A program made the translations under genes and the position numbers. From Salegentibacter sp. R32 (GTDB lineage: Bacteria; Bacteroidota; Bacteroidia; Flavobacteriales; Flavobacteriaceae), in the NCBI RefSeq assembly GCF_008692195.1, contig NZ_RXOM01000060.1:124001-188000 (forward strand): a stretch of 64,000 nt of DNA, written 5' to 3'. Below, piece after piece: positions 7,402 to 29,096 of the stretch. Below the pieces are notes generated by a model. The model worked only from the letters and a program-made list of their open reading frames with translations. It searched no databases and had not been told where the DNA came from. Position 1 is the stretch's first letter. Each line of letters begins with the position of its first letter.

Positions 7402-7415
7402 TGTAATCGATTGCA
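7402..7415 (+). promoter_or_regulatory. LacI-family operator, copy 1 (kduI operon)
   Basis: TGTAATCGATTGCA is a near-perfect palindrome centred on CG, typical of LacI-family operators. The same site in the opposite orientation (TGCAATCGATTACA) occurs before SusC and before the GH28 operon. It abuts the -7 element. The likely binding protein is the LacI regulator encoded at 18444-19499. Confidence 0.8.
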
Positions 7416-7525
7416 TTGCTTGAAAATAGGAAGATGATTTTCAGGTTAGTGCAGGATGCGGTTTCTTTTGAATTATGAGAAATTGTACGCAAAATAATTG
7501 AAGAATCAACTAAAACAATAAAATT

Positions 7526-8359
7526 ATGACAAAATCAGAATTTAGATATGCGCATCATCCCGAAGATGTGAAAAAATATACCACTGAAGAACTTCGAGAG
7601 CATTTTCTAATTCCGGAGTTGTTTGTGAAAAATCAGATTAGTTTAACCTATACGATGTACGACCGCTACATCGCCGGTGGAGCTTTTCCGGTAGATAAAG
7701 CTTTAAAGTTAGAAGCGATTGATGAGTTGAAAGCTGAAAACTTTTTAGACCGTCGTGAGTTAGGAGTGATCAATGTAGGAGGTAAAGGTAAAGTTACCGT
7801 AGATGGTGAAACTTATGAAATTGGTCATCGCGAAGCATTGTATGTAGGTCGAGGAACCAAAGAAGTTGTTTTTGAAGCGACCGATGAGCAGCCTTATTTC
7901 TATATAAATTCGGCTCCGGCACATAAATCTTACCCAACCAAAAAAGTAACCAAAGCAGAAGCTGAGGTGGTAGAGTTGGGAGATACCAAAACATCTAATA
8001 AACGTGTCATCAATAAATTATTGGTCAATAGTGTGATTGATACCTGTCAATTGCAAATGGGAATGACCGAGTTGCAAGAAGGTTGCGTTTGGAACACGAT
8101 GCCACCGCATACGCACGAACGTAGAATGGAGGTTTACTTTTATTTCGATTTAGATGAAGGACAAACCATCAGTCATTTTATGGGTCAGCCGCAAGAAACC
8201 CGTCATATTTTTATGAAAAACCATCAGGCGGTAATTTCACCCGAATGGTCAATTCACGCCGGAGCGGGAACTTCCAACTACACTTTTATTTGGGGGATGG
8301 CCGGAGAAAATTTAGATTATGGCGATATGGACAAAGTAACTCCAGACGAATTAAAATAA
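7526..8359 (+). CDS. kduI: 5-dehydro-4-deoxy-D-glucuronate isomerase KduI
   Basis: This cytoplasmic enzyme isomerises 4-deoxy-L-threo-5-hexosulose uronate (from unsaturated galacturonate) to 3-deoxy-D-glycero-2,5-hexodiulosonate. The 277 residues match the family length. Characteristic stretches are FLDRRELGVINVGG, YEIGHREALYVG, PAHKSYPTKKV, NTMPPHTHERRMEVYFYF and GQPQETRHI. The cupin metal ligands are visible as His195, His197, Glu202 and His244. It is the first gene of the uronate operon, behind an operator-controlled promoter, and is followed 6 bases later by kduD, the next enzyme of the pathway. Confidence 0.98.
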   Translation: MTKSEFRYAHHPEDVKKYTTEELREHFLIPELFVKNQISLTYTMYDRYIAGGAFPVDKALKLEAIDELKAENFLDRRELGVINVGGKGKVTVDGETYEIGHREALYVGRGTKEVVFEATDEQPYFYINSAPAHKSYPTKKVTKAEAEVVELGDTKTSNKRVINKLLVNSVIDTCQLQMGMTELQEGCVWNTMPPHTHERRMEVYFYFDLDEGQTISHFMGQPQETRHIFMKNHQAVISPEWSIHAGAGTSNYTFIWGMAGENLDYGDMDKVTPDELK

Positions 8360-8365
8360 GAGCAA

Positions 8366-9127
8366 ATGAGTTTATTTAGTTTAGAAGGAAAAACAGCTTT
8401 AGTGACCGGATGTAAACGAGGAATCGGTTTTGCAATGGCAGAAGCTTTAGCAGAAGCCGGAGCCAATATTTTAGGCGTTTCAGCTTCCTTAGAAGTTGAA
8501 GGTTCTAAAATTGAAAAAAGAATTAAAGAAATAGGAAAAGATTTTAAAGGATATCAGTGTGATTTTTCAGACCGTAAATCACTTTATGCGTTTATCGAAA
8601 AAGTAAAAGCTGAAAACCCTCAAATCGATATTTTAGTGAATAATGCCGGAACTATTTTAAGAGCTCCTGCAGCAGAACATTCCGATGAATATTGGGATAA
8701 AGTAATTGAAGTCAACCAAAATGCGCAATTCATTCTAACCCGCGAAATTGGGAAAGAAATGTTGAAGCGCGGTCACGGAAAAGTGATTTTTACCGCTTCC
8801 TTATTAACTTTCCAAGGCGGAATTACCGTTCCGGGTTATGCGGCTTCCAAAGGAGCGATTGGTCAGTTAACCATGGCATTTTCTAACGAATGGGCCGGTA
8901 AAGGCGTTCAGGTAAATTCCATCGCGCCGGGTTACATCGCTACCGATAATACGCAGGCTCTACGTGATAACGAAGAACGTAGCGAAGCCATTTTAGCCAG
9001 AATTCCCGCAGGTCGTTGGGGCAAACCAGAAGACTTTAAGGGGCCAATTACCTTTTTAGCTTCCAAAGCCAGCGATTATATGAGCGGAAGCATTCTTACC
9101 GTTGATGGCGGTTGGATGGGACGCTAA
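8366..9127 (+). CDS. kduD: 2-deoxy-D-gluconate 3-dehydrogenase / KDG 5-dehydrogenase KduD
   Basis: This classical short-chain dehydrogenase has 253 residues, the same length as known KduD. It reduces 2,5-diketo-3-deoxygluconate to KDG with NAD(P)H in the cytoplasm. The coenzyme motif TGCKRGIG is at residues 14-21, NNAG at 92-95, and the catalytic residues are Ser145, Tyr158 and Lys162. KduD-type features are the LLTFQGGITVPGYAASK region and the ending ASDYMSGSILTVDGGWMGR. It follows kduI in the order of the pathway. Confidence 0.95.
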   Translation: MSLFSLEGKTALVTGCKRGIGFAMAEALAEAGANILGVSASLEVEGSKIEKRIKEIGKDFKGYQCDFSDRKSLYAFIEKVKAENPQIDILVNNAGTILRAPAAEHSDEYWDKVIEVNQNAQFILTREIGKEMLKRGHGKVIFTASLLTFQGGITVPGYAASKGAIGQLTMAFSNEWAGKGVQVNSIAPGYIATDNTQALRDNEERSEAILARIPAGRWGKPEDFKGPITFLASKASDYMSGSILTVDGGWMGR

Positions 9128-9151
9128 ATTTCTTAAACCGAAACAAACAAA

Positions 9152-10555
9152 ATGAGTAAAAAGACATTTATTACAGATAATTTTTTGTTGGAAAATAAGT
9201 ATGCCGAAGAATTATACCATCAGTATGCGAAAAACCAACCGATTATCGATTACCATAATCACTTGCCTCCGGCGCAAATTGCAGCCGATACACAATTCGA
9301 GAATATTTCCCGTGTTTGGCTAAACGGCGACCATTACAAATGGCGTGCAATGCGTACAATGGGCATAAATGAAAAATTTATCACCGGTAATGCCAGCGAT
9401 AAAGAAAAATTTGAAGCTTGGGGAAAAACCGTTCCGCATACACTTCGTAATCCGCTTTATCACTGGACGCATTTAGAACTGAAACGTTATTTCGGGATCG
9501 ATGAATTGCTGAATGAAAACAACGCTTCTTCCATTTATGAAAATGTAAATGCGCAGCTTCAGCAAAAAGAAAATTCGTGTAGAGGTTTGTTGAAACAAAT
9601 GAATGTGGAAACACTTTGTACGACCGAAGATCCTACTGATACGTTGGAGCATCATCAAGCGATGAAAAAAGAAAATTTCGGAATAAAAGTAAGTACAGCT
9701 TTTCGTCCTGATAAATCCATTTTGATTGATGCGGAAGGTTATACCGATTATTTAAAAGAATTAGGAAAAGTAGCTGAAGTTGATATTCAGAGTTTTCAAG
9801 ATTTAAAAGATGCGCTACTAAAACGAATCGAATATTTTGATGAAAACGGCTGTAAATTATGTGATCACGGATTAAATTCGATGTCTTTTTCAGAATTTAC
9901 CGATGCTGAAGTCGATTTCATCTTAAAAGATAAACTTGCCGGAAAAGAAGTTTCAGTTAAAGATGCTGAAAAATTTAAAACTGCATTATTATTATTTTTA
10001 AGCGAATCTTACCACAAGTTTGGCTGGGTGCAACAATTTCACTTAGGAGCGCTTCGTAACAATAACAAGCGTATGTTGGCGCAATTAGGCCCCGATACCG
10101 GTTGGGATTCGATTGGAGATTATTCCCAAGCTGAAAAACTTTCTCAATTTTTGAATACCTTAGATGGAAAAGATAAATTGACCAAAACCATTTTGTATAA
10201 TTTAAATCCTGCTGATAATGAAGTATTTGCCACAATGATTGGTAACTTTAACGATGGTAGCGTAAAAGGAAAAGTGCAATGGGGTTCCGGTTGGTGGTTT
10301 TTAGACCAAAAAGACGGGATGGAAAAGCAAATGAACGCACTTTCTAATATGGGCTTAATTAGCTGTTTTATTGGAATGTTAACCGATTCTAGAAGTTTCC
10401 TTTCCTTCCCAAGACACGAATATTTTAGAAGAGTGCTTTGTAACCTCTTCGGAAAAGAAATGGCTTCCGGTGAATTACCACAAGATATGGATTTGGTGGG
10501 TAATACCATTTCAAATATCTGCTACGGAAATGCAAAAGACTATTTCAACTTTTAA
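9152..10555 (+). CDS. uxaC: Glucuronate (uronate) isomerase UxaC
   Basis: UxaC converts D-galacturonate to D-tagaturonate and D-glucuronate to D-fructuronate, the first step for saturated uronates. The 467-residue protein has the amidohydrolase-like metal motif IDYHNHLPP (His35, His37), the segment CTTEDPTDTLEHH and the C-terminal LTDSRSFLSFPRHEYFRRVLCNLFG, all typical of the family. It lies 24 bases after kduD and its stop touches the kdgK start. Together with uxaB and uxaA in the same operon, it supplies the full galacturonate branch. Confidence 0.98.
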   Translation: MSKKTFITDNFLLENKYAEELYHQYAKNQPIIDYHNHLPPAQIAADTQFENISRVWLNGDHYKWRAMRTMGINEKFITGNASDKEKFEAWGKTVPHTLRNPLYHWTHLELKRYFGIDELLNENNASSIYENVNAQLQQKENSCRGLLKQMNVETLCTTEDPTDTLEHHQAMKKENFGIKVSTAFRPDKSILIDAEGYTDYLKELGKVAEVDIQSFQDLKDALLKRIEYFDENGCKLCDHGLNSMSFSEFTDAEVDFILKDKLAGKEVSVKDAEKFKTALLLFLSESYHKFGWVQQFHLGALRNNNKRMLAQLGPDTGWDSIGDYSQAEKLSQFLNTLDGKDKLTKTILYNLNPADNEVFATMIGNFNDGSVKGKVQWGSGWWFLDQKDGMEKQMNALSNMGLISCFIGMLTDSRSFLSFPRHEYFRRVLCNLFGKEMASGELPQDMDLVGNTISNICYGNAKDYFNF

Positions 10556-11578
10556 ATGAAAGATTCAAAACAACATAAAAAAATCGTTTCCTTCGGAGAA
10601 GTGCTCATGCGTTTATCTCCTGCTGAAAACAGAAAACTTCCGCAGGCAAAAACCATAGATTTCTATTTTGGGGGAACCGAAATGAACGTTGCAGCTTCCT
10701 TAGCTTATTTTGGAGAGCAAACCCAGCAAATTACCAACGTTTCTAACGATTTGGTTGGCGATGCAGCCATTGCTGCAATGCGTCAGTTTGGGATCGATGT
10801 TTCCGCAGTTAATAAAGTAAATCATCCGCTAGGACTTTATTTTTTAGAAGTAGGTTCTGGGCTTCGCGCCAGTAAAATTGCTTACAATCGTTTACACGGA
10901 AGTTTTGCGAATATTATACCAGAAAGTGTAAATTGGGAAGAAGTTTTAGAAGGAGCCGGTTTTTTACATTGGACGGGGATTTCTCCTGCTATTTCAGAAG
11001 GTGCTTATCAAACTTTAAAAGAAGGCTTGCAAGTTGCCAAGCAAAAAGGAATTGCCGTAACCGCAGATCCTGCTTATCGAAGTAATCTTTGGCAATATGG
11101 CAAAGATGGTCACGAAGTTTTAAAAGAATTGGTTGGTTTATCGACCATTTTTATTGGTGGCGTTAACGAAATTAATGAGATTTTAAAAACTGATTTCGAT
11201 TTTTCTAAAGAAGGTTTTGTGGCGGCAAGTAAAGCATTGATAGAAGAATGCCCTTCTATCGAAAAAGTTTTTGATAAGATAAGAGACGGTGTTAGCGCTT
11301 CTTGGCAAAAAGTCTATGGTCGCGCGTGGACGGGTTCAAAATATATTGAAACCGAGCAATTGGAAATCACGAATGTAGTCGATCGAATTGGTACCGGAGA
11401 TGCTTATGCTGCCGGACTTATTTACGGTTTAATTCATTTCGACGATCAAAAAGCCTTGGAGTTTGCCAACGCAGCTTGCGCATTAAAACATACCATTTTA
11501 GGCGATGCCAATTTGGTAAGCCCGGAAGAAGTCTTAGAAGTGATCGAAGGAAGCACCGGCGGAAGGATAAAACGATAG
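10556..11578 (+). CDS. kdgK: 2-keto-3-deoxygluconate kinase KdgK
   Basis: This PfkB-family kinase has 340 residues. It phosphorylates KDG to KDPG, the point where both uronate branches meet. The N-terminal GGTEMNVAASLAYFG and the C-terminal PfkB signature VDRIGTGDAYAAGLIYG carry the substrate-binding region and the catalytic base (Asp282). ATG follows the uxaC stop with no gap. Family assignment is firm. KDG specificity rests on context (pathway operon with aldolase, kduID and uxaABC). A 295-base repeat-bearing gap follows. Confidence 0.93.
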   Translation: MKDSKQHKKIVSFGEVLMRLSPAENRKLPQAKTIDFYFGGTEMNVAASLAYFGEQTQQITNVSNDLVGDAAIAAMRQFGIDVSAVNKVNHPLGLYFLEVGSGLRASKIAYNRLHGSFANIIPESVNWEEVLEGAGFLHWTGISPAISEGAYQTLKEGLQVAKQKGIAVTADPAYRSNLWQYGKDGHEVLKELVGLSTIFIGGVNEINEILKTDFDFSKEGFVAASKALIEECPSIEKVFDKIRDGVSASWQKVYGRAWTGSKYIETEQLEITNVVDRIGTGDAYAAGLIYGLIHFDDQKALEFANAACALKHTILGDANLVSPEEVLEVIEGSTGGRIKR

Positions 11579-11873
11579 CGAACGGCGGCTGAGTGATTGC
11601 GACGCAGGAGCAATAGTATCGAAGACAAAGTGGGATTGAAGTTAGGATATAGAAGGTAGAAAAGAGATACGAGAATATAGAGAATAGACGTAAGGTTTTA
11701 GAGTCTTGAGTCTGGAAGTAAGAGACAAGAAGCAAGAACCAAGATGTTACGTCATCCCGGACTTGATCCGGGATCTCATCAAATTGAGAAAAGGATGGGG
11801 TTCTGAATCAGGTTCAGAATAAACAATCTTAATAATATAAATAGTAGAAAAATTAATTTATAACCATTATTAA
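11579..11873 (+). repeat. Mosaic intergenic repeat region between kdgK and kdgA
   Basis: This is the largest gap in the uronate operon and holds no plausible gene. It contains a GC-rich stretch (11579-11640) unlike the surroundings, a low-complexity purine-rich tract with repeated GAGTCTTGAGTC/AAGAAGCAAGAACCAAGA-like units (11700-11745), and two hairpins. The first is ATCCCGGA-cttga-TCCGGGAT (11754-11774) and the second is TTCTGAA-tcagg-TTCAGAA (11801-11819). The paired GTCATCCCGGACTTGATCC / TTCTGAATCAGGTTCAGAAT layout resembles dispersed intergenic palindromes seen in flavobacterial and other genomes (from memory, not searched). Whether it carries a promoter or a processing site for kdgA is unknown. 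Confidence 0.65.
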
Positions 11874-12545
11874 ATGGCACAATATTCAAGAATAGCAGTA
11901 GCACAACAGATGAAAGAAACCGGGATTGTTCCTGTTTTTTATCACGCAGATGTGCAAACCTGTAAAGATATTTTAAAAGCGTGCTACAACGGTGGCGCTC
12001 GTGTATTTGAGTTTACCAATCGTGGTGATTTTGCACATGAAGTTTTTGCTGAATTAGTAAAATACGCTAACAAAGAATTACCAGGAATGATGCTTGGTGT
12101 AGGTTCGGTGATCGATGCAGGAACTACTGCGCTTTACCTTCAGTTGGGGGCAAATTTTATTGTTTCTCCGTTAATTAATGCTGAAATGGCGAAAACCTGT
12201 AATCGCAGAAAAATAGCTTGGATGCCGGGTTGTGGTTCGGTTACAGAAATTAATTATGCGGAAGAACTTGGCGCAGAAGTCGTGAAGATTTTCCCGGGAT
12301 CTCAAGTCGGCGGACCTTCATTTGTAAAAGCCGTAAAAGGGCCTTTACCTTGGTCGAGCATTATGCCAACCGGCGGAGTTTCACCAACCGAAGAAAACTT
12401 GAAAGAATGGTTTGAAGCAGGCGTACATTGTGTAGGTATCGGCTCAAAATTGTTCCTGAAAAATGCAGACGGTAGCTTCGGTTTAGAAAAAGTTAAAGAA
12501 AAAGTGAGCGAGGCTATTCAAATTGTAGAAAGCTTAAAGAAATGA
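11874..12545 (+). CDS. kdgA: KDPG aldolase (bifunctional KHG/KDPG aldolase)
   Basis: This 223-residue class I aldolase cleaves 2-keto-3-deoxy-6-phosphogluconate to pyruvate and glyceraldehyde-3-phosphate, completing uronate breakdown. Visible features are Glu46 in FEFTNRG, the GVGSV turn, MPGCGS, the Schiff-base lysine Lys138 in EVVKIFPGSQVGG, and the phosphate-binding MPTGGVSPTEEN. The stop overlaps the start of the TRAP binding protein by 4 bases (ATGA), so it is translationally linked to the transporter genes. Confidence 0.96.
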   Translation: MAQYSRIAVAQQMKETGIVPVFYHADVQTCKDILKACYNGGARVFEFTNRGDFAHEVFAELVKYANKELPGMMLGVGSVIDAGTTALYLQLGANFIVSPLINAEMAKTCNRRKIAWMPGCGSVTEINYAEELGAEVVKIFPGSQVGGPSFVKAVKGPLPWSSIMPTGGVSPTEENLKEWFEAGVHCVGIGSKLFLKNADGSFGLEKVKEKVSEAIQIVESLKK

Positions 12546-13528
12546 ATTTATTCAGAAGTAAAATAACTTTAGGAGTGCTTTTGGCGTTTACCTTAGTTTT
12601 TTCAGCTTGTAAAAAAGAAGAGAAAACTAAAGTTATTCGGTTAGGGCATGCGTTAGATGTTTCGCATCCGGTACATAAAGCCATGAAATTTATGGCCAAT
12701 CGTATTGAAGAAAAATCTAACGGACAATTAAAAGTAGATATTTATCCGAGTCAGCAACTAGGTTCAGAACGTGAGTTAATCGAACTGTTGCAAATAGGAA
12801 GTTTAGGAATGACCAAAGTTTCAACAGGAACCTTAGAGAATTTCGCTCCGGAGTTAAGAGTATTTGGTTTACCGTTTTTATTTAAAGATCGTCAACATCG
12901 TTTCGATGTTTTAGAGAGTGAAATAGGAGAAAAACTTTTAGAGGCTAGTGTACGAAATCGATTGAAGGGATTAACTTTTTACGATGCCGGAAGTAGAAGT
13001 TTTTACAGCACGCAACCGCTAAATTCTCCTTCAGATTTAAAAGGTCAAAAAATTCGTGTGATGGAAAGTCAAACCGCCATCAATATGGTGAAATATTTAG
13101 GCGGTTCTCCAACTCCAGTAAGTTGGGGAGAATTATACACTGCTCTTCAACAAGGAATTGTAGATGGAGCTGAAAATAACTTGCCAAGTTTCTATTTATC
13201 TTATCATTATGAAGTTTGTAAATACTACATGGTCGATGAGCACACGGCACTTCCAGATGAACTTCTAATAAGTACCGTAGTTTGGGATAAGCTTTCTAAA
13301 GAAGAACAAAAGTGGGTGAAAGATGCTGCGATGGAATCTTCAGAATATGAAAAAGGTATTTGGAGAGAAGCAGAACTTCACGCCTTAGAAGAAATTAAAA
13401 AAGCAGGAGTAAAAGTTACATATCCTGAAAAAGAACAATTTAGAGAAATGGTGCAACCGATGTATGACGAGTTTAAGAAAGATGAAGAGATGAAGAAAAC
13501 CATTGAAGCCATTCAGGCCGTAAAATAA
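12542..13528 (+). CDS. dctP: TRAP transporter substrate-binding protein DctP (lipoprotein)
   Basis: The 328-residue periplasmic binding protein of the TRAP family captures organic acids for the DctQM permease. It has the family hallmarks VSHPVHKAMKFMANRIEEKSNG, IYPSQQLGSERELIELLQIG, and KGQKIRVMES with the carboxylate-binding arginine (Arg172). The N-terminus MNLFRSKITLGVLLAFTLVFSAC ends in a lipobox (FSAC, Cys23), so it should be membrane-anchored, whereas most TRAP binding proteins are free. The operon context (uxaCBA, kduID) points to galacturonate or unsaturated uronates as ligand; this is inferred. Confidence 0.95.
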   Translation: MNLFRSKITLGVLLAFTLVFSACKKEEKTKVIRLGHALDVSHPVHKAMKFMANRIEEKSNGQLKVDIYPSQQLGSERELIELLQIGSLGMTKVSTGTLENFAPELRVFGLPFLFKDRQHRFDVLESEIGEKLLEASVRNRLKGLTFYDAGSRSFYSTQPLNSPSDLKGQKIRVMESQTAINMVKYLGGSPTPVSWGELYTALQQGIVDGAENNLPSFYLSYHYEVCKYYMVDEHTALPDELLISTVVWDKLSKEEQKWVKDAAMESSEYEKGIWREAELHALEEIKKAGVKVTYPEKEQFREMVQPMYDEFKKDEEMKKTIEAIQAVK

Positions 13529-13537
13529 TCGAGATTC

Positions 13538-14005
13538 ATGAAAAAAAGTTTAGATAAAGTTTTGGGAACAATTTTAGTCTTTTTGATGGCTTTAATTGTG
13601 ATCGCCATTTTATGGCAGGTCTTTTCTCGTTACGTTATGCAAAATCCAAGTTCGGTAACCGAAGAGATCGCACGTTACTTAATGATCTGGATCGGTATTT
13701 TGGGAGCAGCTTACGCTTCCGGACAGCAAGAACATTTAGCAATTAATATACTTCCACCTAAGTTAAATGAACGAAATCGTATTCGTTTGCGCATTGGGAT
13801 CAATATTTTAATTATTCTATTCTCTTTATGTGCTTTAATTATTGGTGGTGGTAATTTGGTTTACATTAGTTATTTGTTGGGGCAAACTTCAGCAGCTTTG
13901 CATTTACCATTATCTGTGGTTTATGCGGTACTGCCAATAAGTGGTTTGCTTATCATTATTTATAAATTAAATGAAGTGTTTAACAGTAAAAAGTATTTGG
14001 TATGA
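13538..14005 (+). CDS. dctQ: TRAP transporter small permease subunit DctQ
   Basis: The 155-residue protein has four hydrophobic segments and the DctQ pattern VFSRYVMQNPSSVTEEIARYLMIWIG followed by AAYASGQQEHLAI. It is the small inner-membrane subunit that pairs with DctM. It sits 9 bases after dctP, and its last 4 bases overlap dctM (ATGA), the usual arrangement for a stoichiometric complex. Confidence 0.94.
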   Translation: MKKSLDKVLGTILVFLMALIVIAILWQVFSRYVMQNPSSVTEEIARYLMIWIGILGAAYASGQQEHLAINILPPKLNERNRIRLRIGINILIILFSLCALIIGGGNLVYISYLLGQTSAALHLPLSVVYAVLPISGLLIIIYKLNEVFNSKKYLV

Positions 14006-15291: not shown

Positions 15292-15311
15292 AAATTTTTA
15301 GCATTAATAAA

Positions 15312-16766: not shown

Positions 16767-16858
16767 CAAATGAAGAATGAAAATTTTCCTGCAAGATTTT
16801 ATTCAAAAAATGAAGCCTAAAAATTGAAAAGACGTTGCAGGATTAAATATTGAAGAAG

Positions 16859-19499: not shown

Positions 19500-19520
19500 T
19501 TAAGTAGTAATTCAATTAAA

Positions 19521-19534
19521 TGTAATCGATTGAA
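19521..19534 (-). promoter_or_regulatory. LacI-family operator, copy 2 (before the regulator gene)
   Basis: TGTAATCGATTGAA on the + strand differs by one base from copy 1. It lies 22-35 bases upstream of the LacI start codon, where binding would repress the regulator's own gene. No clear TAnnTTTG element abuts it, unlike the other three copies. Its centre is 196 bases from the copy before SusC, so looping between the two is possible. Confidence 0.65.
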
Positions 19535-19684
19535 ATTTGATGATTAAATCAGTCTCCTATTGGCTCAAGATACTATTTATTTTTATTTTATACTTATTAT
19601 AATGACAAATTTATACCATGAATTGTATATTATTCATACTTTAAAAACTTGTAATTAACTTTTTATTAATTTTTATAACATTTT

Positions 19685-19716
19685 TTTTGCATATTGATAA
19701 TAAATATTTACTTTAG
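19685..19716 (+). promoter_or_regulatory. Promoter of the SusC-SusD operon
   Basis: TTTTG (19685-19689), a 19-base spacer and TACTTTAG (19709-19716) give a Bacteroidota-type -33/-7 promoter, one base off TAnnTTTG. The operator starts at the next base. Confidence 0.6.
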
Positions 19717-19730
19717 TGCAATCGATTACA
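19717..19730 (+). promoter_or_regulatory. LacI-family operator, copy 3 (SusC operon)
   Basis: TGCAATCGATTACA is the exact reverse complement of copy 1 and is identical to copy 4. It touches the -7 element and lies 49 bases before the SusC start codon. Confidence 0.8.
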
Positions 19731-19779: not shown

Positions 19780-22700
19780 ATGAACAGAAAGTTTACAATT
19801 CTTTATTTTTATGGGATGCTATTGGCATTCATGATTAGCCCACATATAGGATATTCCTATAGTGGGGAAAAAGATTTTGAAAAAACAGATCGCAACGAAA
19901 AAAATCAACAGGAAGTCCGGGTTCGGGGTGTGGTTTTAGATGACCAAGGTGTTCCATTGGTAGGAGTTACTGTTATGGAGGAAGGTACTTCTAATGGAAC
20001 AACAACTGATTTTGATGGTAATTACGAAATCGTTGTAGCTGATAATGAGAGCGTTTTGAAATTTTCATATGTAGGATTTCAAACGATTTCGCAACCGGTA
20101 GGAGAAAAAAGAAATATTGATATTACCCTTGAGCCAAGTACCAATGAGTTGGAAGAATTGGTGATTGTGGGGTATTCTAAAGTTTCTAGAGAAGAGTTAA
20201 CTTCAGCGGTGGCTACAGTAAAAGCGGAACAAATTAAGGATATGCCGGTAAATAGTGCTGCAGAAGCAATTCAGGGTCGTTTGGCCGGGGTTCGGGTAAC
20301 TCAATCTGAAGGAGCTCCTGGAGCAGATGTGAGTATTCGAGTTCGTGGAGGAACTTCAATTACTCAAGATAATAGTCCGTTATTTATCGTAGATGGTATT
20401 CAGGTAGAAAACGCATTGTCGATACTTTCGCCACAAGAGATTGAATCTATAGATGTTTTAAAAGATGCGGCGTCTACTTCTATTTACGGTGCGCGTGGTG
20501 CGAATGGGGTAGTTTTAATTACCACTAAAGGAGGAAAGGCTATGCCTACTCAGGTAACTTATAATGGTTATACAGGTTTTAGGAAAATAGTGAATAAATT
20601 AGATGTAATGAATCCTTATGATTTTGTGCAATATCAATATGAATTGTACAATTTTCCTGAAGATGAACAATTAGCAAATACTTTTATGGAAAGATACGGT
20701 AGATATCAAGATCTTGATATCTATAGAAGTGTAGAAGAAAGAGATTGGCAAGATGAAATATTTGGAAGGGAAGCACTTAACCAAACTCATAACTTGACAG
20801 TTACAGGTGGAGATGCTAAAACTACCTTCAGTCTTAGTTTGAACCACGTGGAAGAAGAGGGAATTATGCTGAATTCTGGATATAAAAGGAGTTTAGCTAA
20901 CTTTAAAATGGATCATAAATTAAGTGATAAAATTAAATTTGGTATAAACTCCAGATATAGTAGAAGAAAAATAACCGGAGCGGGAACATCTTCTTCAGGA
21001 TCTCAAAAATCTAACAGATTGCGTAATGCGGTAAGGTATCAACCTTTTGTAGGTCCTAATAATCAGAGTTTTGTAGATGTGTTTGATCCTAATTATGCAA
21101 CTTTGACTAACTTAGTGAATCCATTAATGTTGGTGAATGATGAGATTAAAAGAGATTATAGAAACGATTTAATTTTAAACAGTTATGTCTCTTTTGAGGT
21201 TTTAGATAACCTTACGTTTAAAACAGTAGCTGGTTATGTACAACAGGATAGAAAGGAAAATGAGTTTATGGGAACGGTAACAAGTGTAGCAAGATCTAAT
21301 GCAAATTTACCTGTGGTTGACTTAAATAGGAGTCAATCTAGAAGGGTTACCAATTCTAATACGTTAAATTATAGTAATAATTTTGGGGATCACAGTATAG
21401 ATTTGCTGGTTGGGCAAGAAACCGTTAGAACAGAAAATGAGTCGGAGAGAATTTATGTGAAGTGGTTGCCGGAAAATATAACGCCGGATAAAGCTTTTGC
21501 AAATATACAGAGTGCCGTTCCTCCGGAAGGTATGGTTCAGGATGCTCCAAGTAGCTCTATGTTACCAGACCGTTTAGCTTCATTTTTTGGTAGAGCGCAT
21601 TATTCTTACAAAAAGAAATATTTAGCTACTTTTTCAGTAAGACGTGATGGTTCAAGTGTATTTGGGCCAAAAAATCGTTTTTCTACTTTCCCATCGGTAT
21701 CTTTAGCATGGAATGTGTATAAAGAAAACTTTATGCAAAGTGCTGATTGGTTATCTAACCTAAAATTAAGATTTAGTTATGGTGAGGTAGGAAACAATAG
21801 AATTCCAGCATTTTTATATAATACATATTTCAACTCTTCTAGTGATAATGGCTATGCTTTCGGGCAATCGGTACAACCGGGCTCTGCACCGCCATCAGAA
21901 TTAGCTAATCCAAATGTAAAATGGGAATCTACTATTTCTAAAAACCTTGGTATAGATTTTGGTTTTTTTGACAACAGAGTGTATGGTAGTTTAGATGCCT
22001 ATATTACAGATACAGAAGATTTATTGTTAAGAGCTAAAATTCCTCAAACCAGTGGTTATGATTATCAATATCAAAACTCAGGAAAAACAAGAAATAAAGG
22101 ATTGGAATTAGCTTTGGGGGCAACGATTGTTGATACTGACGATTTTACTTGGCAAGCTAATTTTAATATCTCTACCAATGAAAATAGAATAATTAGTTTA
22201 GGAAGAAATACCACGGGAGAAGATTTAGAATTTTACTATGAAAGTTCAGGATGGGTAAATGATATTAGAGATTTTAAGGTAGAAGTAGGAGCTCCGGTTG
22301 GTCAATACTATGGTTATGTGACTGATGGTTTTTATGATTTAGACGATTTTACGTATGATGCAACGACACAAGAATATACATTAAGAGATGATGTGCCTAG
22401 TTCTAGCGCAGTAGCGTTGGGATCAAAAGGGGTTAATCCTGGAGATTTGAAGTTAAAAGATTTGAATGGCGATGGGATCATTGATGATAATGATAAAAAA
22501 GTACTTGGTGATGCTCAGCCAGATTTCTTCGGAGGCTTAAATCAACAATTTAGATACAAAAATTTTGATTTAAGTATGTTCTTTAATTTCTCTGTAGGAA
22601 ACGATGTATATAACGCCAATAAAGTTGAATTTACTACACAGTATCTTTATAGAGATAACAATATGTTAGAAGTAATGAATAACCGTTGGAAATGGTTTGA

Positions 22701-23064
22701 TACAAATGGAAATAAAGTTACAGATCCTCAAGCCTTAGCAGATTTAAACCAGAATACAACTATATGGACCCCATCTAGCGGTCAATATATTTTACACTCT
22801 TATGCTATTGAAGACGGATCTTTCTTAAGATTGAGTAACCTTACTTTTGGTTATTCACTTCCGGATAGTGTATTAGAAAAGATAGGATTTATTTCAAACT
22901 TTAGAATTTATGGTACCGTAAATAATGTATTTACGTTAACAAATTACACAGGATATGATCCTGAAGCAAATACAAGAAGAAGTAATCCGTTAACTCCCGG
23001 TGTAGATTATGCAGCATATCCGAGAAGTAGGTTCTACTTAGCCGGAGTAAACGTAACATTTTAA
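19780..23064 (+). CDS. SusC/RagA-type TonB-dependent outer-membrane transporter
   Basis: The 1094-residue protein has a signal peptide (residues 1-26). A CarboxypepD_reg-like domain (VRVRGVVLDDQGVPLVGVTV..GTTTDFDGNYEI) follows, then a TonB plug with the SusC motif SIRVRGGTSITQDNSPLFIVDG and KDAASTSIYGARGANGVV. A 22-strand barrel ends in an aromatic-Phe terminus (LAGVNVTF). It imports oligosaccharides bound by the partner SusD across the outer membrane. As the only SusC in the pectin locus, it is the probable importer of oligogalacturonides. An operator-controlled promoter precedes it, and SusD follows after 14 bases. Confidence 0.97.
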   Translation: MNRKFTILYFYGMLLAFMISPHIGYSYSGEKDFEKTDRNEKNQQEVRVRGVVLDDQGVPLVGVTVMEEGTSNGTTTDFDGNYEIVVADNESVLKFSYVGFQTISQPVGEKRNIDITLEPSTNELEELVIVGYSKVSREELTSAVATVKAEQIKDMPVNSAAEAIQGRLAGVRVTQSEGAPGADVSIRVRGGTSITQDNSPLFIVDGIQVENALSILSPQEIESIDVLKDAASTSIYGARGANGVVLITTKGGKAMPTQVTYNGYTGFRKIVNKLDVMNPYDFVQYQYELYNFPEDEQLANTFMERYGRYQDLDIYRSVEERDWQDEIFGREALNQTHNLTVTGGDAKTTFSLSLNHVEEEGIMLNSGYKRSLANFKMDHKLSDKIKFGINSRYSRRKITGAGTSSSGSQKSNRLRNAVRYQPFVGPNNQSFVDVFDPNYATLTNLVNPLMLVNDEIKRDYRNDLILNSYVSFEVLDNLTFKTVAGYVQQDRKENEFMGTVTSVARSNANLPVVDLNRSQSRRVTNSNTLNYSNNFGDHSIDLLVGQETVRTENESERIYVKWLPENITPDKAFANIQSAVPPEGMVQDAPSSSMLPDRLASFFGRAHYSYKKKYLATFSVRRDGSSVFGPKNRFSTFPSVSLAWNVYKENFMQSADWLSNLKLRFSYGEVGNNRIPAFLYNTYFNSSSDNGYAFGQSVQPGSAPPSELANPNVKWESTISKNLGIDFGFFDNRVYGSLDAYITDTEDLLLRAKIPQTSGYDYQYQNSGKTRNKGLELALGATIVDTDDFTWQANFNISTNENRIISLGRNTTGEDLEFYYESSGWVNDIRDFKVEVGAPVGQYYGYVTDGFYDLDDFTYDATTQEYTLRDDVPSSSAVALGSKGVNPGDLKLKDLNGDGIIDDNDKKVLGDAQPDFFGGLNQQFRYKNFDLSMFFNFSVGNDVYNANKVEFTTQYLYRDNNMLEVMNNRWKWFDTNGNKVTDPQALADLNQNTTIWTPSSGQYILHSYAIEDGSFLRLSNLTFGYSLPDSVLEKIGFISNFRIYGTVNNVFTLTNYTGYDPEANTRRSNPLTPGVDYAAYPRSRFYLAGVNVTF

Positions 23065-23078
23065 AAAATTACAAACAC

Positions 23079-24902
23079 ATGAAAATGAAAACTAGATTTA
23101 TTTTATTCACATTGTTAATGGGGTTTACCCTTATTTCCTGTGAAGATTATTTAGACACAAAGAGTCTTTCAAAAGATTCTCAAGAAGATGTTTTTAACGA
23201 TGTTTCCAATACCTCTTCCGTAGTCGTAGCAATGTATGGAGAACTTATTGGAGATAATGGTTATGGTAATAGGTTGAGTGAAATATTACCCATGGCCGCA
23301 GATGATTTTGAAACTTCAGGAGATTACAATTGTAATGATAGAAGAGGGATAAGCATGTATGCTGCTTGTTCTTCTAATCCTGATTTAGATGATCCATTTA
23401 GACAGCTTTATAGCGGTATAGAGAGAGCTAATCTTTGTATTAAATACATTCCCACTTCAACCGTTTATCAAAATGGTTCACAAAGTGATAAAGATATGAT
23501 GGATCGTTATTTGGGAGAGGCTTTAACCTTAAGAGCACAATTTTATTACGAGCTTATTAGAAACTGGGGAGATGTACCTTTTCAAAACAAACCAGCTTCA
23601 GATTATGACAACCTGTTTTTAGCAAAAACAGATCGTGACGTTATCTATGAGCAATTGTTAGCAGATTTAGAAACCGCAGCTCAATATGTGCCTTGGAGAA
23701 CAGAAGCAAACATTCCACCTACACGATTAGATAAAGCAGCTGTAAAAGCTTTACGGGCAAGAATTGCAATGGCTAGAGCAGGATACTCTTTACGAAGAGA
23801 ATCTCAACAGATGGAACAAGGTTCTAACCCAGAAACTTATTACCAGATTGCCAGACAAGAATGTGCTGAAGTTATGGAACGTCGTGGAGATCACGATTTA
23901 AATCCGGATTTTGAAGATATTTTCCGTTCACTTCACGAAGGAAGAGCAGATAATACCAACGAAATTATTTTTGAAGTTGGAGCCTTTGGAGGTAACTCTA
24001 AAACCGATAGTAAATTAGGATATTATAATGGATTGGAACACGATAGAGCTTCCCAGTGGAATGGAGGAGGAGGTGTAAATGCCATCCCGGTATATTTCTA
24101 TGAGTTTGATAGAGATGATCAGAGAAGAGATGTAACTATCAATATTTTTGAAGTAAATGCAGATGAAATGACAGAAGTAGCAAGAGCTAATAGCTGGACA
24201 GATGGAAAATTCAGAAAATCTTGGACAAGTATTACCGGACCTTCACAAAACCTAGGAGTAAACTGGCCGATTATTCGTTTTTCAGATGTGCTATTAATGT
24301 TCGCTGAAGCAGATAACGAATTAAACAATGGTCCTTCAAATGAAGCTATAAGTGCTTTACAAGAAGTGAGAGCAAGGGCGTTTATCAATAATCCGGATGC
24401 AATGGATCCTATTCCAACCGGTCAGCAAGAATTTTTTGATGCAATCGTTCATGAAAGATACCTTGAGTTTGGAGGAGAAAGTATAAGAAAATACGACTTG
24501 ATTAGATGGAATTTATTAAATGAAAAATTCCAAGAAACTAGACAAGAATTAACCGACTTTATGAATGGTACTGGTGATTATTCAAACGTACCAGAGTATA
24601 TTTACTATGATGTAGCACCTTACGATCCTTCCTTATCAGCTCAAGAAGTTGTTGAAAGTTTAAATATTTTCTTTACCGGTAATGATGAATCTACTGTATT
24701 TTACAATCCTGCTCCAGATCCATCTCAAGTCCCTTCAGGATATTCTCAAGCCAGATGGAGAAGTGGTATCGAAGAGGAATATATTGATAGTGAGCGAAAA
24801 GGATTTATGCAATATTTTGAACCTAATAGAAAGGAACTATTACCGCTCTACGATGATATTGTGAATACAAACTATAACCTAACACAAGATTACGGTTACT
24901 AA
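23079..24902 (+). CDS. SusD/RagB-type surface glycan-binding lipoprotein
   Basis: The 607-residue protein has the lipoprotein signal FTLLMGFTLISC (lipidated Cys21) and the SusD/RagB fold. Visible are an N-terminal TPR-like region (LGEALTLRAQFYYELIRNWGDVPF), the internal KAAVKALRARIAMARAGYS, NWPIIRFSDVLLMFAEADNEL and the C-terminal HERYLEFGGESIRKYDLIRW. It sits on the cell surface as the lid of SusC and delivers the pectic oligosaccharide. It is longer than many SusD proteins (about 500-550 residues). Confidence 0.96.
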   Translation: MKMKTRFILFTLLMGFTLISCEDYLDTKSLSKDSQEDVFNDVSNTSSVVVAMYGELIGDNGYGNRLSEILPMAADDFETSGDYNCNDRRGISMYAACSSNPDLDDPFRQLYSGIERANLCIKYIPTSTVYQNGSQSDKDMMDRYLGEALTLRAQFYYELIRNWGDVPFQNKPASDYDNLFLAKTDRDVIYEQLLADLETAAQYVPWRTEANIPPTRLDKAAVKALRARIAMARAGYSLRRESQQMEQGSNPETYYQIARQECAEVMERRGDHDLNPDFEDIFRSLHEGRADNTNEIIFEVGAFGGNSKTDSKLGYYNGLEHDRASQWNGGGGVNAIPVYFYEFDRDDQRRDVTINIFEVNADEMTEVARANSWTDGKFRKSWTSITGPSQNLGVNWPIIRFSDVLLMFAEADNELNNGPSNEAISALQEVRARAFINNPDAMDPIPTGQQEFFDAIVHERYLEFGGESIRKYDLIRWNLLNEKFQETRQELTDFMNGTGDYSNVPEYIYYDVAPYDPSLSAQEVVESLNIFFTGNDESTVFYNPAPDPSQVPSGYSQARWRSGIEEEYIDSERKGFMQYFEPNRKELLPLYDDIVNTNYNLTQDYGY

Positions 24903-24913
24903 AAATTATAACA

Positions 24914-26626
24914 ATGAATATTTATAAATCAAATAAAACCATTTTTAGCAGAATTTTTATAGCACTGCTAGGCGTATTGGCGATATGGTCGTGCGAGAAA
25001 GACGATGATTATACGCCAGAGGGCGAAACTAGAATGTTTACCCCGGTAGAAATTAGTTCTCAAAGTTTTGAAGATCGAGTAGAGTTAACTTGGAGTCCTT
25101 CACTTTTTACAGATGGAATAAATGAAACCTATACAACCCAAGTATCAGAAGATTCTTTATTTTCAGATGAAAGTGAGGTAGTCTTAGAAAAAGTTACCGA
25201 TACTTCAGGAGTTGTTTTTACCGATCAAGAATTAGAAGTAAGAACAGATTATTTTATAAGAGTTAAAGCAAATTCTATAGATGACAGGCCAGAATCTAAA
25301 TGGAGTACCAGTACAGGTTTTTCCATTAGAGGAGTTCAAAAATTATATCCTATTTTAAGTCCTTCTATATTAGCGACCATGGTAAAATTAGAATGGGAAT
25401 ATACAGAAGGGGTTACAGAATTTAGATTTCAAGAATATACACAGGATGAAACAGATCCAACTTCAGAGCCTGTGTTAGTAGGTGATCCTATAGTCTTCCC
25501 TATTTCTGCTGAAGAAGAACAAAATGCAATGAAAACGGTGGAAGGTTTAGAACCTAATACAAAGTATTTTGTAGACTTATACAAAGGTCCGGTTAGTATT
25601 GGTTATAGAAGTTTTAAAACTAAAGAAGAAAGTGATTACGCTGTTGTACTGTCACCGGGTGACGATATCGTAACAACCGTAAACAATAGTCAAGATGGAG
25701 ATGTTATTGGTCTTGAGCCGGGACTATATGATGCAGAAGGCGATAGATTTCAAATTGATGGAAAAACCATTACAATAGAATCTATCTCTAACGATCCTAA
25801 TGATACAAAAATTAATTTTGAGGAATTTACCTTAAATGATAGTGGAGCAGGTATTACGTTAAGAGGCTTAGAGCTCGATGGTCAAAACGATGCCTTATAT
25901 CTTATTAACTTAACCAGTAGTAATGGTAATGGAGATCCTGCAGATTATACCGATGTCATGATAGATAATTGTATTGTTCATGATGTAGAAACAAGTGCAT
26001 TTAGAGCAAATAGAGGATCAGATGGAGCTTATTCTATGAATACTTTTACTATTCAATATTCTACCTTTTATAATTTTGCTCCTAATAGTTATGCATTTAT
26101 ACACGCAGAAGAGTTAGTGTTTAATGAATTGAAGTTATCCAACTCAACTTTCTATAAAGCAGGAGATATCTTTATACGTTATAGAAAAGATTTTGATAGT
26201 CCAATCCCAAATCCACTATTTACAATAGAATATTGTACTATTAATAGTATAGGTTTTAGTAACAATTATACATTGTTAGATTTAAACGATAAGCAAGCAA
26301 CTCTTAATTTTAGAAATAGCATTTTAGCTAATATTCCAAGAGAAGGAGGTACAGCTGAAACAGATTTGGTAAGAATGGATAATGAAACATCGGCGGCTTC
26401 TTTTTCTTTCAGTAATTTCTTCAACCTAACCAACGGAGATTTAGATGAACCTGAAGAAGTAATTATTCCAGAACCTGAAGAAGGATATATTACTTCTCAA
26501 AATATGTACAATATAGATTTAGGTTGGGATAACAATACCACAGATTTTACACTTCCTGCAGATTCAGAATTGCAAAATGCATCATCGACAGGAGGCGCAA
26601 TAGGAGATCCTAAATGGTGGTACTAA
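24914..26626 (+). CDS. SusE/F-like surface lipoprotein with FN3 and DUF4957/DUF5123 beta-helix
   Basis: The 570-residue lipoprotein (GVLAIWSC) follows SusD by 11 bases. Residues about 40-235 look like two fibronectin-III domains (SFEDRVELTWSPS; MVKLEWEYTEGVTEF). Residues about 240-500 form a right-handed beta-helix of the DUF4957 type (GDVIGLEPGLYDAEGDRFQIDGKTI is its first turn), and the end (STGGAIGDPKWWY) is a DUF5123-like cap. Proteins of this layout accompany SusCD pairs of pectin loci in Bacteroidota and are thought to bind glycan at the surface. No lyase catalytic residues are recognisable, so binding rather than cleavage is inferred. A terminator follows. Confidence 0.85.
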   Translation: MNIYKSNKTIFSRIFIALLGVLAIWSCEKDDDYTPEGETRMFTPVEISSQSFEDRVELTWSPSLFTDGINETYTTQVSEDSLFSDESEVVLEKVTDTSGVVFTDQELEVRTDYFIRVKANSIDDRPESKWSTSTGFSIRGVQKLYPILSPSILATMVKLEWEYTEGVTEFRFQEYTQDETDPTSEPVLVGDPIVFPISAEEEQNAMKTVEGLEPNTKYFVDLYKGPVSIGYRSFKTKEESDYAVVLSPGDDIVTTVNNSQDGDVIGLEPGLYDAEGDRFQIDGKTITIESISNDPNDTKINFEEFTLNDSGAGITLRGLELDGQNDALYLINLTSSNGNGDPADYTDVMIDNCIVHDVETSAFRANRGSDGAYSMNTFTIQYSTFYNFAPNSYAFIHAEELVFNELKLSNSTFYKAGDIFIRYRKDFDSPIPNPLFTIEYCTINSIGFSNNYTLLDLNDKQATLNFRNSILANIPREGGTAETDLVRMDNETSAASFSFSNFFNLTNGDLDEPEEVIIPEPEEGYITSQNMYNIDLGWDNNTTDFTLPADSELQNASSTGGAIGDPKWWY

Positions 26627-26688
26627 TCAAATTGTTTATTTAGAAATAGCCTTTAAGAAAGTGAAAGCTTTCAAAATAAACTAAACTT

Positions 26689-26740
26689 TGCCCTCTGAAT
26701 ATCTTTTGTGCAAGAATTGAATATTCAGGGGCATTTTTTT
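26689..26740 (+). terminator. Stem-loop terminator after the SusE/F-like gene
   Basis: TGCCC-t-CTGAATAT (26689-26702) pairs with ATATTCAGGGGCA (26721-26733) with one bulged T, and seven T follow. It lies 63 bases after the SusE/F-like stop and only 13 bases before the PL1-CE8 start codon, leaving no space for a separate promoter. It may act as a partial terminator or RNA-stabilising end for the SusCDE message. Confidence 0.75.
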
Positions 26741-26753
26741 AAAAACCTTGAGA

Positions 26754-28964
26754 ATGCTAAAAACAAAAAAAAATATCAGTCTATTCTTATTTTTAATAAT
26801 AAATATTCTGTGGTCTTATTCTCAAACGCTATCCTTTCCCGGAGCAGAAGGTTTTGGTAGATATACCACCGGAGGTCGTGGCGGAATTATTTATACCGTC
26901 ACCAATTTGAATGACGATGGAGAGGGAAGTTTGCGAAAAGGAATAGTGAAACATGAAAAAAGAACCATTGTTTTTGCAGTTTCCGGAACTATTAATTTAA
27001 AATCATCATTAGATATTAACCAAGGTGATCTCACCATTGCCGGACAAACTGCGCCCGGTGGCGGAATTACCTTAAAAGGATACCCATTAAAAGTAAAAGC
27101 AGATAACGTAATTATTCGTTATATACGTTGCAGGATGGGCGATATAAATGAAGTAGAAGACGATGCTTTTGGTGGTCGGGATCAAAAAGATATTATTTTA
27201 GACCATTGCTCCATTAGTTGGGCAACCGATGAAAACGCCTCTTTCTATTGGAACAAAAACTTCACGATGCAATGGTGTATTATTTCAGAAGCATTAAACC
27301 GCTCCGTACATCATAAAGGAGCTCATGGTTATGGAGGAATTTGGGGAGGTGAAAATGCAAGTTTCCATCATAATCTCTTTGTTAGTAATAACAGCAGAAA
27401 TCCACGTTTCGGAGGTTCTAAAACCGTTCCTAATCCACCAAGTGAATTTGTAGATTTTAGGAATAATGTAATTTTCAATTGGGGCGATAACAGTATTTAT
27501 GGAGGAGAAAAAGGAAATTATAATATGGTAAATAACTATTTTAAAGCAGGGCCTGCCACTACTTCCTCTAAATTAGATAGAATTGTAAGTCCATCTACAC
27601 CTTATGGGAAATTCTATATCAACGGAAATTATGTTGAAGGGTTTCCAGAAATATCTCAAGACAATTGGAATGGCGGAGTACAATGTGAAAATCCTTTACA
27701 AACCAAACAGGATGAAGAATTTCCTATCAATAATAATATAAAAACAGAAACTGCAGAAGAAGCTTATAATAGTGTACTTCAAAAAGCAGGATTGAGTACT
27801 GTTAGGGATGAAGTAGATAAAAGAATTATATATGAAGTAAGGTCAGGAAAAACAACTTTTGAAGATGGGATTATAGATTCTCAAGAAGATGTTGGGGGTT
27901 GGCCAAAGCTAAGAAAAGGAAAAAGCCTAAAAGATACCGATGAAGACGGAATGCCAGATAAATGGGAAAAAGAAAAAGGTTTGTCTCCTTCTAAAAACGA
28001 TGCAAACAATTTTGATTTAAATAAAGACTACACCAATATAGAAGTATATTTTAATCAGTTAGTAGCTTCCGAAGAAACTTCAGTAGTAAAAGGTTATGAT
28101 TTTGTCGTCGCACAGGATGGAAGCGGTGATTTTAATAAAATTTCAGAGCTTATAAACAACCTGCCCAATTTCAGAAGTAAAGAGACCAAGGTTTATATAA
28201 AAAAAGGGGTTTACAAAGAAAAACTGGTACTTCCTTCCTCTAAAACCAATATCACTTTTGTAGGTGAAGAAAAAGATAGTACCATCATAACTTACGATGA
28301 CTATGCAAGAGAACTAAATGGGTTTGGAGAAGAAATAGGAACAACAGGTTCTACTTCCTTTTTTGTTTTAGCCAATCATTTTAAAGCTGAAAACTTAACT
28401 TTTGAAAATAGTTCTGCTCCAGTAGCACAAGCAGTTGCAGTAAGGGTTGATGGCGATCAAGTGATTTTTAAAAATTGTAACTTTCTAGGAAACCAAGATA
28501 CTTTATACTTACACGGAAAAAATAGCAGGCAATATTATAAAAATTGTTACATAGAAGGAACAGTCGATTTTATTTTCGGTTGGTCTACCGCTTTATTTGA
28601 AAACTGTCAAATTCACAGTAAATCTCCGGGATACGTTACCGCAGCATCCACAGAAAAAGGCGCTGAATTCGGTATGGTGTTTAAAAACTGCAATTTCACC
28701 GGTGATACTAAAAAAAATAGTGTGTATTTAGGGAGACCTTGGCGGGATTATGCACAAACCGTTTTAATTAATTGTGAATTAGGAGACCATATAAAACCCG
28801 AAGGATGGCATAATTGGAATAAACCAGAAGCAGAGAAAACAACCCTTTATGCTGAATATGAATCTACTGGAGAAGGTGCTTCGGGTAAAAGGGTTAAATG
28901 GGCTAAAAAATTACATAAAAAACAAATAGAAAAATATAATTTATTTAATATTATCGGAATATAA
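26754..28964 (+). CDS. PL1 pectate lyase fused to CE8 pectin methylesterase
   Basis: I choose ATG 26754 (a TTG lies 6 bases upstream); it gives a signal peptide ending YSQ. Residues about 20-330 are a PL1 pectate lyase beta-helix (LSFPGAEGFGRYTTGGRGG; DHCSISWATDENAS; SRNPRFGG with the likely catalytic Arg). Residues about 390-425 hold a Ca-binding-like DTDEDGMPDKWE segment. Residues about 440-736 are a CE8 methylesterase with QDTLY, DFIFGW and YLGRPWRDY. The fused protein could de-methylate and cleave homogalacturonan in one polypeptide, secreted or surface-exposed. A terminator precedes it; an operator-controlled unit follows. Confidence 0.93.
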   Translation: MLKTKKNISLFLFLIINILWSYSQTLSFPGAEGFGRYTTGGRGGIIYTVTNLNDDGEGSLRKGIVKHEKRTIVFAVSGTINLKSSLDINQGDLTIAGQTAPGGGITLKGYPLKVKADNVIIRYIRCRMGDINEVEDDAFGGRDQKDIILDHCSISWATDENASFYWNKNFTMQWCIISEALNRSVHHKGAHGYGGIWGGENASFHHNLFVSNNSRNPRFGGSKTVPNPPSEFVDFRNNVIFNWGDNSIYGGEKGNYNMVNNYFKAGPATTSSKLDRIVSPSTPYGKFYINGNYVEGFPEISQDNWNGGVQCENPLQTKQDEEFPINNNIKTETAEEAYNSVLQKAGLSTVRDEVDKRIIYEVRSGKTTFEDGIIDSQEDVGGWPKLRKGKSLKDTDEDGMPDKWEKEKGLSPSKNDANNFDLNKDYTNIEVYFNQLVASEETSVVKGYDFVVAQDGSGDFNKISELINNLPNFRSKETKVYIKKGVYKEKLVLPSSKTNITFVGEEKDSTIITYDDYARELNGFGEEIGTTGSTSFFVLANHFKAENLTFENSSAPVAQAVAVRVDGDQVIFKNCNFLGNQDTLYLHGKNSRQYYKNCYIEGTVDFIFGWSTALFENCQIHSKSPGYVTAASTEKGAEFGMVFKNCNFTGDTKKNSVYLGRPWRDYAQTVLINCELGDHIKPEGWHNWNKPEAEKTTLYAEYESTGEGASGKRVKWAKKLHKKQIEKYNLFNIIGI

Positions 28965-29050
28965 CTTTCTTAAAATCATTAGGTCAAAAATCATAGTTTA
29001 CTATATTTTAAGCTGATAAATTAATATATTATCAATTTTAAGAGTCAAAA

Positions 29051-29082
29051 TTATGTTAATTGATAAAGGTTTTATACATTAG
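29051..29082 (+). promoter_or_regulatory. Promoter of the GH28-to-uxaE operon
   Basis: TTATG (29051-29055), a 19-base spacer and TACATTAG (29075-29082) form a -33/-7 pair like the one before SusC. The operator starts at 29083. The leader to the ATG would be about 25 bases. Confidence 0.5.
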
Positions 29083-29096
29083 TGCAATCGATTACA
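29083..29096 (+). promoter_or_regulatory. LacI-family operator, copy 4 (GH28 operon)
   Basis: TGCAATCGATTACA is identical to the copy before SusC and again abuts the -7 element. A GTG start in frame at 29082 would lie inside the operator, so the GH28 gene must start later, at ATG 29112. Confidence 0.8.

Follow-up and report, generated by a model that had tools for sequence, protein, structure and literature searches.

A locus in the flavobacterium Salegentibacter sp. R32 holds three gene clusters for pectin use and, between two of them, lacI, a gene for a LacI-family regulator; a 14-bp palindrome, TGYAATCGATTRCA, precedes each cluster. We analysed the locus in a window of 64,000 nucleotides (contig NZ_RXOM01000060.1, positions 124,001 to 188,000; coordinates without a contig or locus name are window positions). 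lacI sits between the hexuronate and susC clusters, and each cluster is probably transcribed as a single unit:

7402–7415, no strand: operator TGTAATCGATTGCA of the kduI unit, predicted transcription start 7406
7526–18475, + strand: putative single hexuronate unit with kduI, a kduD-like gene, uxaC, a kdgK-like kinase gene, eda, the tripartite ATP-independent periplasmic (TRAP) transporter genes dctPQM, uxaB and a uxaA-like gene
18444–19499, − strand: lacI, LacI-family regulator of 351 amino acids (aa), PF00356 and Peripla_BP domains
19521–19534, no strand: putative auxiliary operator O2, TGTAATCGATTGAA, 21 bp before the lacI start codon, with no abutting −7 box
19717–19730, no strand: operator O1, TGCAATCGATTACA, of the susC unit, predicted start 19721, conserved in relatives
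19780–28964, + strand: putative single unit with susC, susD, a DUF4957 protein gene and a 738-aa pectinesterase gene
29083–29096, no strand: operator TGCAATCGATTACA of the GH28 unit, predicted start 29087, conserved before GH28 in genomes G002 and G004
29112–42422, + strand: putative single GH28 unit, first part, with GH28, DUF4861, GH88, GH43, esterase, pectinesterase and Pel9A-like lyase genes
29112–42422, + strand: remainder of the same unit, with GDSL hydrolase, cupin, second GH28, short-chain dehydrogenase/reductase (SDR) and UxaE genes

The palindrome is even, with a CG centre. A scan of the window found it exactly at 7402–7415, 19717–19730 and 29083–29096 and with one change at 19521–19534, as an earlier, sequence-only reading of this DNA had claimed, and found no further site with zero or one mismatch. 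In 60 windows simulated with a first-order Markov model, exact sites averaged 0.000, and sites with at most one mismatch and a TCGA core averaged 0.05. Allowing up to three mismatches gave 17 sites in the window against a chance mean of 10; because that excess is marginal, the 13 sites with two or three mismatches were set aside as background, among them the sole two-mismatch site, at 10883, which falls within the kdgK-like gene. The genome-wide scan that the same reading had proposed (4.08 Mb, 68 contigs) found five exact copies, three in the window and two on another contig (C64:11264 and C64:12624); the reversed pattern gave no exact copy and one with at most one mismatch. Four one-mismatch sites outside the window, on contigs C1, C11, C14 and C33, were dropped, and none of them has an abutting −7 box. 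The C1 site lies outside open reading frames (ORFs) of at least 120 aa, those on C11 and C14 lie inside ORFs, and that on C33 is at the end of an ORF, ahead of a 2-oxoglutarate dehydrogenase gene.

The regulator scored 44.2 bits against PF00356 (cut-off 27) and was also above the cut-offs of PF00532, PF13377 and PF13407, and it reached none of the 23 curated LacI-family equivalogs in NCBIfam (RbsR, CytR, PurR, CcpA and others; best 216.8 bits against a cut-off of 382). Among the matches listed, its closest orthologs are in Mesonia sp. (87% identity), Zunongwangia (82–84%), and Salegentibacter and Christiangramia (72–75%). We asked how closely palindrome and regulator occur together, taking as orthologs LacI matches at E = 1 × 10−105 or better, which 54 of 397 Flavobacteriaceae genomes possess. 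The exact palindrome was present in 48/54 ortholog genomes and in 16/343 others (P = 4 × 10−41, Fisher test with species counted as independent), with 150 copies in the former and 16, all single, in the latter. The reversed pattern was also present in 16/397 genomes (hand count), so 16 is about the level expected by chance. Within the genus, the four of 16 genomes with a close ortholog (83–100% identity) are exactly the four with the palindrome. Of 134 distinct ortholog regions, 72 have a site with at most one change no more than 500 bp upstream of lacI, as against 0 of 24 control LacI genes; these regions are those among the matches listed, with 372 further confirmed relatives outside the set. 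The count becomes 72/90 once 44 Chryseobacterium-type orthologs (including Empedobacter, a Flavobacterium and a Weeksellaceae metagenome-assembled genome), which were separated by hand after their upstream sites proved absent, are set apart. We infer that the palindrome belongs to this regulator, which is predicted to bind it.

The three exact sites in the window share one promoter layout. The 8-mers TATATTTG, TACTTTAG and TACATTAG directly precede the sites at 7402, 19717 and 29083, with zero bases between, which confirms that the operator starts at the base after the putative −7 element at all three unit promoters. The terms −7 element and start point are themselves predictions from sequence. 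The candidate promoter elements are:

7394–7401, + strand: −7 box TATATTTG of the kduI unit, abutting the operator (predicted promoter)
19565–19572, − strand: second candidate −7 box of lacI, TATCTTGA, from a pattern scan
19606–19613, − strand: candidate −7 box of lacI, TAAATTTG, weak, from a pattern scan
19686–19689, + strand: candidate −33 element TTTG of the susC promoter, 19 bases ahead of the −7 box
19709–19716, + strand: −7 box TACTTTAG of the susC unit, abutting O1
29075–29082, + strand: −7 box TACATTAG of the GH28 unit, abutting the operator

The same fusion of box and operator recurs widely. To orient 105 distinct exact sites, we took the closest ORF start downstream and made no use of the box; eight further exact sites that lie inside ORFs or have no ORF start within 300 bp were dropped. 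TAnnTTNR abuts the operator at 69 of the 105 (other upstream offsets: mean 0.96, maximum 5), and at 30 of the 56 sites flanked by an ORF on just one side (mean 0.64, maximum 4). For the other 49, with ORFs on both sides, orientation is ambiguous; box counts at downstream offsets reach 9, as expected if some sites were wrongly oriented. TTG lies 19 or 20 bases ahead of the box in 35/69 sites, with a further peak at 12 bases (13/69). The kduI box and operator recur before kduI in genomes G002, G004, G010, G030, G045 and G055. In a start-site map of Flavobacterium psychrophilum, a TAnnTTTG box lies at −12 to −5 (PMC9723704). The operator would therefore cover −4 to +10, with starts predicted at 7406, 19721 and 29087, so the idea that the repressor sits on the start point holds as a prediction consistent with the published flavobacterial box position.

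Operators were found at kduI, susC and GH28 in relatives. Together with co-occurrence and the recurring box, they support a single LacI regulon that would link SusCD import, depolymerisation and cytoplasmic hexuronate catabolism. The regulon had been described as having four sites, which stands for the window; an unlinked gene for a secreted protein has an operator too. That gene encodes a 434-aa protein and is preceded by the operator at C64:12624, directly after the box TATATTTA. By reading, the protein combines a signal peptide and a repeated domain with a type IX-like end at its C terminus; it had no Pfam match, and the idea that it is a relative of the window pectinesterase was dropped, as no similarity was found (best E = 0.24). 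G002, of the same genus, has both exact operators at the same gene. The 434-aa protein may be an uncharacterised pectin-use protein.

Some further features of these genes and sites were noted. An exact operator lies both before and after the 434-aa protein gene in two species (L011 11264–12637, on C64 of the genome studied here; L073 5676–7046), and in another genus (L241 643–1511) a protein similar by reading starts 24 bp from a near-exact operator. At L011 11207–11277, between the 434-aa gene and an M1-peptidase-like gene, the second palindrome is without a −7 box, and a terminator-like hairpin with a T run comes after it. A sixth exact palindrome in G002 (L072 7415–7428, on C4) is unlinked and without a −7 box of the form TAnnTTNR. 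In the window, the uxaA-like ORF and lacI are convergent, and their 3′ ends overlap by 32 bp (18444–18475). The Pfam domain of the 738-aa pectinesterase covers only residues 451–732; the roughly 450 N-terminal residues outside the pectinesterase model (26748–28100) may contain another pectin-active domain.

We conclude, with a probability of roughly 0.87, that the 18444–19499 protein is a local LacI-family pectin-use repressor acting through TGYAATCGATTRCA operators. The genome has six LacI-type genes, and another of these proteins might bind the palindrome, its closeness to this lacI being coincidental. In line with that idea, similar CG-centred palindromes, with two changes, occur upstream of 5 of the 24 control LacI genes, and cross-reaction between related regulators is therefore conceivable. 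However, none of the 24, which include the genome's other five, has the palindrome with at most one change, and the palindrome both tracks this ortholog and adjoins its gene, which makes such a coincidence very unlikely. Less likely still is that the regulator activates these promoters. Some LacI-family members do activate, and the induction of hexuronate genes in Gramella flava on pectin (PMC5306329) is allowed by either sign; against this, a site at about −4 to +10, past the −7 box, would be in a blocking position. Several observations weigh against the repressor reading in its full extent: the two-change sites at control genes; the 36 of 105 exact sites without a box, a large share of which belong to Chryseobacterium and other Weeksellaceae; the 6/54 ortholog genomes without the exact palindrome; and the Chryseobacterium-type orthologs, of which 0/44 have a site within 500 bp upstream of lacI. 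To these may be added the susCD pair of the pectin polysaccharide utilisation locus (PUL) of G. flava, which was not induced on pectin although the hexuronate genes were (PMC5306329). That would partly cut against coordinate control if G. flava has this regulator. The same article notes such a PUL in G. echinicola DSM 19838 as well; that organism carries a 73% ortholog of the regulator (L099).

The fourth site, O2, differs from the others. It lacks an abutting −7 box, which favours an auxiliary operator over a fourth unit promoter, and the distance from its centre to that of O1, downstream, is 196 bp. We searched for such pairs with a rule that ignored spacing (two sites within 450 bp upstream of lacI), under which 42 of the 134 regions qualified. 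In 33 of the 42 the site cores were intact and the spacing was 142–144, 164, 173–174, 183–186 or 194–198 bp, clusters about one helical turn apart. The remaining nine lay elsewhere or had a degenerate core, with 84, 148, 180, 183, 201, 244, 262 and 308 bp among them. Related species differ by about one turn, as in Galbibacter (185–186 and 195–196 bp). Gapped-pattern scans of 57 genomes, for spacings of 121–244 bp, found pairs away from lacI at 134, 153, 164 (two genera), 184–186, 195 and 196 bp, and one 176-bp pair that faces lacI from a distance. By reading, O1 is followed by susC in five of these groups (134, 153, both 164 and 184–186) and by the gene of a probable secreted protein in two (195 and 196). 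Other pairs were mostly off phase, at 152, 156, 160, 177, 201, 203, 211, 213, 224, 234 and 249 bp. In the 201- and 211-bp pairs the other site is 23–24 bp from the start of a second gene, and the two sites may therefore act on different genes.

Spacing at lacI loci showed a phase bias at 10.5 bp per turn (P = 2 × 10−5 for 22 groups at up to 200 bp; P = 1.4 × 10−4 for 23 groups at 130–210 bp; P = 0.0056 for all 27 groups). Without three out-of-phase groups (84, 262 and 308 bp), the last of these values is 4 × 10−4 instead of 0.0056. Group values are medians or circular-safe splits entered by hand, and the genus labels mix names and g codes, such that two labels could be one genus. When spacing drift was simulated along the lacI tree, the bias persisted at P = 2.5 × 10−5 (37 tips, without two degenerate sites), 6 × 10−4 (39 tips) and 0.01 (all 42 tips). 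The 39-tip set includes L106, which has three mismatches and falls outside the pair rule, and is missing four qualifying pairs; the 42-tip set is complete. As a control, the distance from O2 to the lacI start was not phased (R = 0.19, P = 0.5, 20 groups). Pairs away from lacI were not significantly phased, either as all 20 (P = 0.23) or as the 15 classed by script as having one promoter (P = 0.094). Subsets picked after the distances had been seen gave P = 0.025 (11 'class A' pairs) and 1.6 × 10−4 (8 pairs), and all 27 lacI groups with all 20 other pairs gave P = 0.0018.

These data suggest that, in many Flavobacteriaceae genera, a tail-less LacI-type repressor loops SusCD promoters, at lacI and at unlinked promoters, by means of a box-fused operator and a weaker upstream operator about n + 0.6 turns away (10.5 bp per turn; 12–18 turns). 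We place this generalisation barely above even odds. The competing explanation is that 19521 is a plain lacI operator, for autoregulation or as a roadblock, with no loop, and that the spacing pattern stems from shared ancestry and the choice of rows. In its favour, O2 is 21 bp from the lacI start, pairs away from lacI are not phased when all 20 or the 15 one-promoter pairs are taken, independent contrasts on the tree are weak (4/9 within 0.15 turn of a whole number), and a weighted tree test accepts any period between 10 and 13 bp, so that the period is not sharply fixed. Yet the phase bias at lacI loci survives simulated drift, the O2-to-start distance shows no phase of its own, and similarly spaced pairs occur at susC promoters without lacI. 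We therefore regard the loop-free account as a serious possibility at somewhat worse than even odds, and looping as slightly the likelier of the two.

Under the repressor reading, a dimer of the regulator would bind the CG-centred palindrome TGYAATCGATTRCA, each operator covering about −4 to +10, and obstruct polymerase where transcription of three units begins: hexuronate catabolism with the TRAP transporter; SusCD with the pectinesterase; and GH28 and GH88 with the esterases. The unlinked secreted-protein gene would be repressed likewise. Release would come from a pectin breakdown product, for example a hexuronate, 5-keto-4-deoxyuronate or 2-keto-3-deoxygluconate (KDG), as the pathway suggests. 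In the divergent lacI–susC region, O1 and the weaker O2, 196 bp away, are probably brought together in a repression loop, where a second dimer would assist susC repression and also damp lacI; from its position O2 could autoregulate lacI. The contact that closes the loop would not be of the lac kind, because the orthologs are without a C-terminal tetramerisation tail (the 11 aligned all end 3–15 residues past the last shared block) and the match of the regulator to E. coli LacI stops at E. coli residue 311.

Relatives of the regulator showed other arrangements. In Chryseobacterium panacisoli (L126 5306–19710), and in similar loci, a LacI ortholog (66% identity) has a xylB-xylA-xylE cluster on one side and a hexuronate cluster on the other, and the palindrome TGCAATCGATTGCA precedes xylA without an abutting −7 box; the role of the regulator in Chryseobacterium may be different or wider. 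Among paralogous LacI genes (43–44% identity), TTCAATCGATTGAA occurs twice each in L035 (1306 and 1464; 158 bp apart) and L040 (1362 and 1465; 103 bp), and a sister palindrome, TACAATCGATTGTA, lies upstream of lacI in L039 and L041. These sister palindromes possibly reflect a code between recognition helix and operator.

PULs of Bacteroidota are best known for control by hybrid two-component systems, by extracytoplasmic function (ECF) pairs and by SusR-like activators (PMC3878776, for part of this). Here, one repressor seems to govern the route from the outer membrane to central metabolism, and the promoter–operator layout is regular enough for start points and regulon members to be predicted by pattern. 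Through the motif, pectin use is also linked to a family of secreted proteins that has no Pfam match, and if the loop reading is true, spacing statistics alone would have indicated DNA looping in Bacteroidota. No description of this regulon was found in the literature searched, which left most subscription journals outside, and the searched parts of PMC12125979 and PMC5334617 held nothing on this regulator. Literature searched for DNA looping in Bacteroidota contained none on Bacteroidota regulators, judged by title. Papers that matched 12-base parts of the palindrome dealt, again by title, mostly with E. coli or S. aureus, and one of them with CcpA of S. aureus, a LacI-family protein.

LacI-type hexuronate regulons are known from Bacteroides, where those of UxaR, KdgR and UxuR were predicted by comparative genomics (PMC3878776, PMC4052901). 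The present regulator resembles them as a local LacI-family regulator in Bacteroidota assigned to the catabolism of galacturonate, glucuronate and KDG. The reading of the present locus as one LacI regulon is largely supported, and what is new in it is the extension to surface import, the fixed fusion of box and operator, and a possible long-range phased auxiliary operator. In these accounts of Bacteroides, pectin polysaccharide genes are under hybrid two-component systems, whereas here a LacI operator also precedes susCD and depolymerase genes, a comparison made by description. LacI-family operators are listed as even palindromes of 16–22 bp with a central CG pair (PMC4052901). Our palindrome is likewise even and CG-centred, and at 14 bp, counted without flanks, it is shorter. 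The same source describes tandem LacI-family sites spaced by 22 and 32 bp, at multiples of the helical turn, and reads them as cooperative binding of two neighbouring dimers (PMC4052901), whereas the pairs here are 12–18 turns apart, so cooperation would need a loop.

The layout at O1 and O2 recalls lac O1 and O3 of E. coli, where the primary operator overlies the start point and a weaker one, upstream and next to the regulator gene, keeps a preferred helical phase; here the place over the start point is predicted and the phase a possible one. How strongly lac is repressed depends on the phasing of its operators (PMC1762422, for part of these details). The lac spacing is 92 bp, as against about 134–198 bp here. 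A further difference lies in the protein, as the tail that is absent from these orthologs is present in the lac repressor. E. coli LacI forms its tetramer through that C-terminal tail. In the gal operon of E. coli, which has two promoters, looping requires an architectural protein. The regulator described here would be like GalR, a LacI-family protein whose dimers loop DNA without a tetramer tail, with looping in the present case being predicted.

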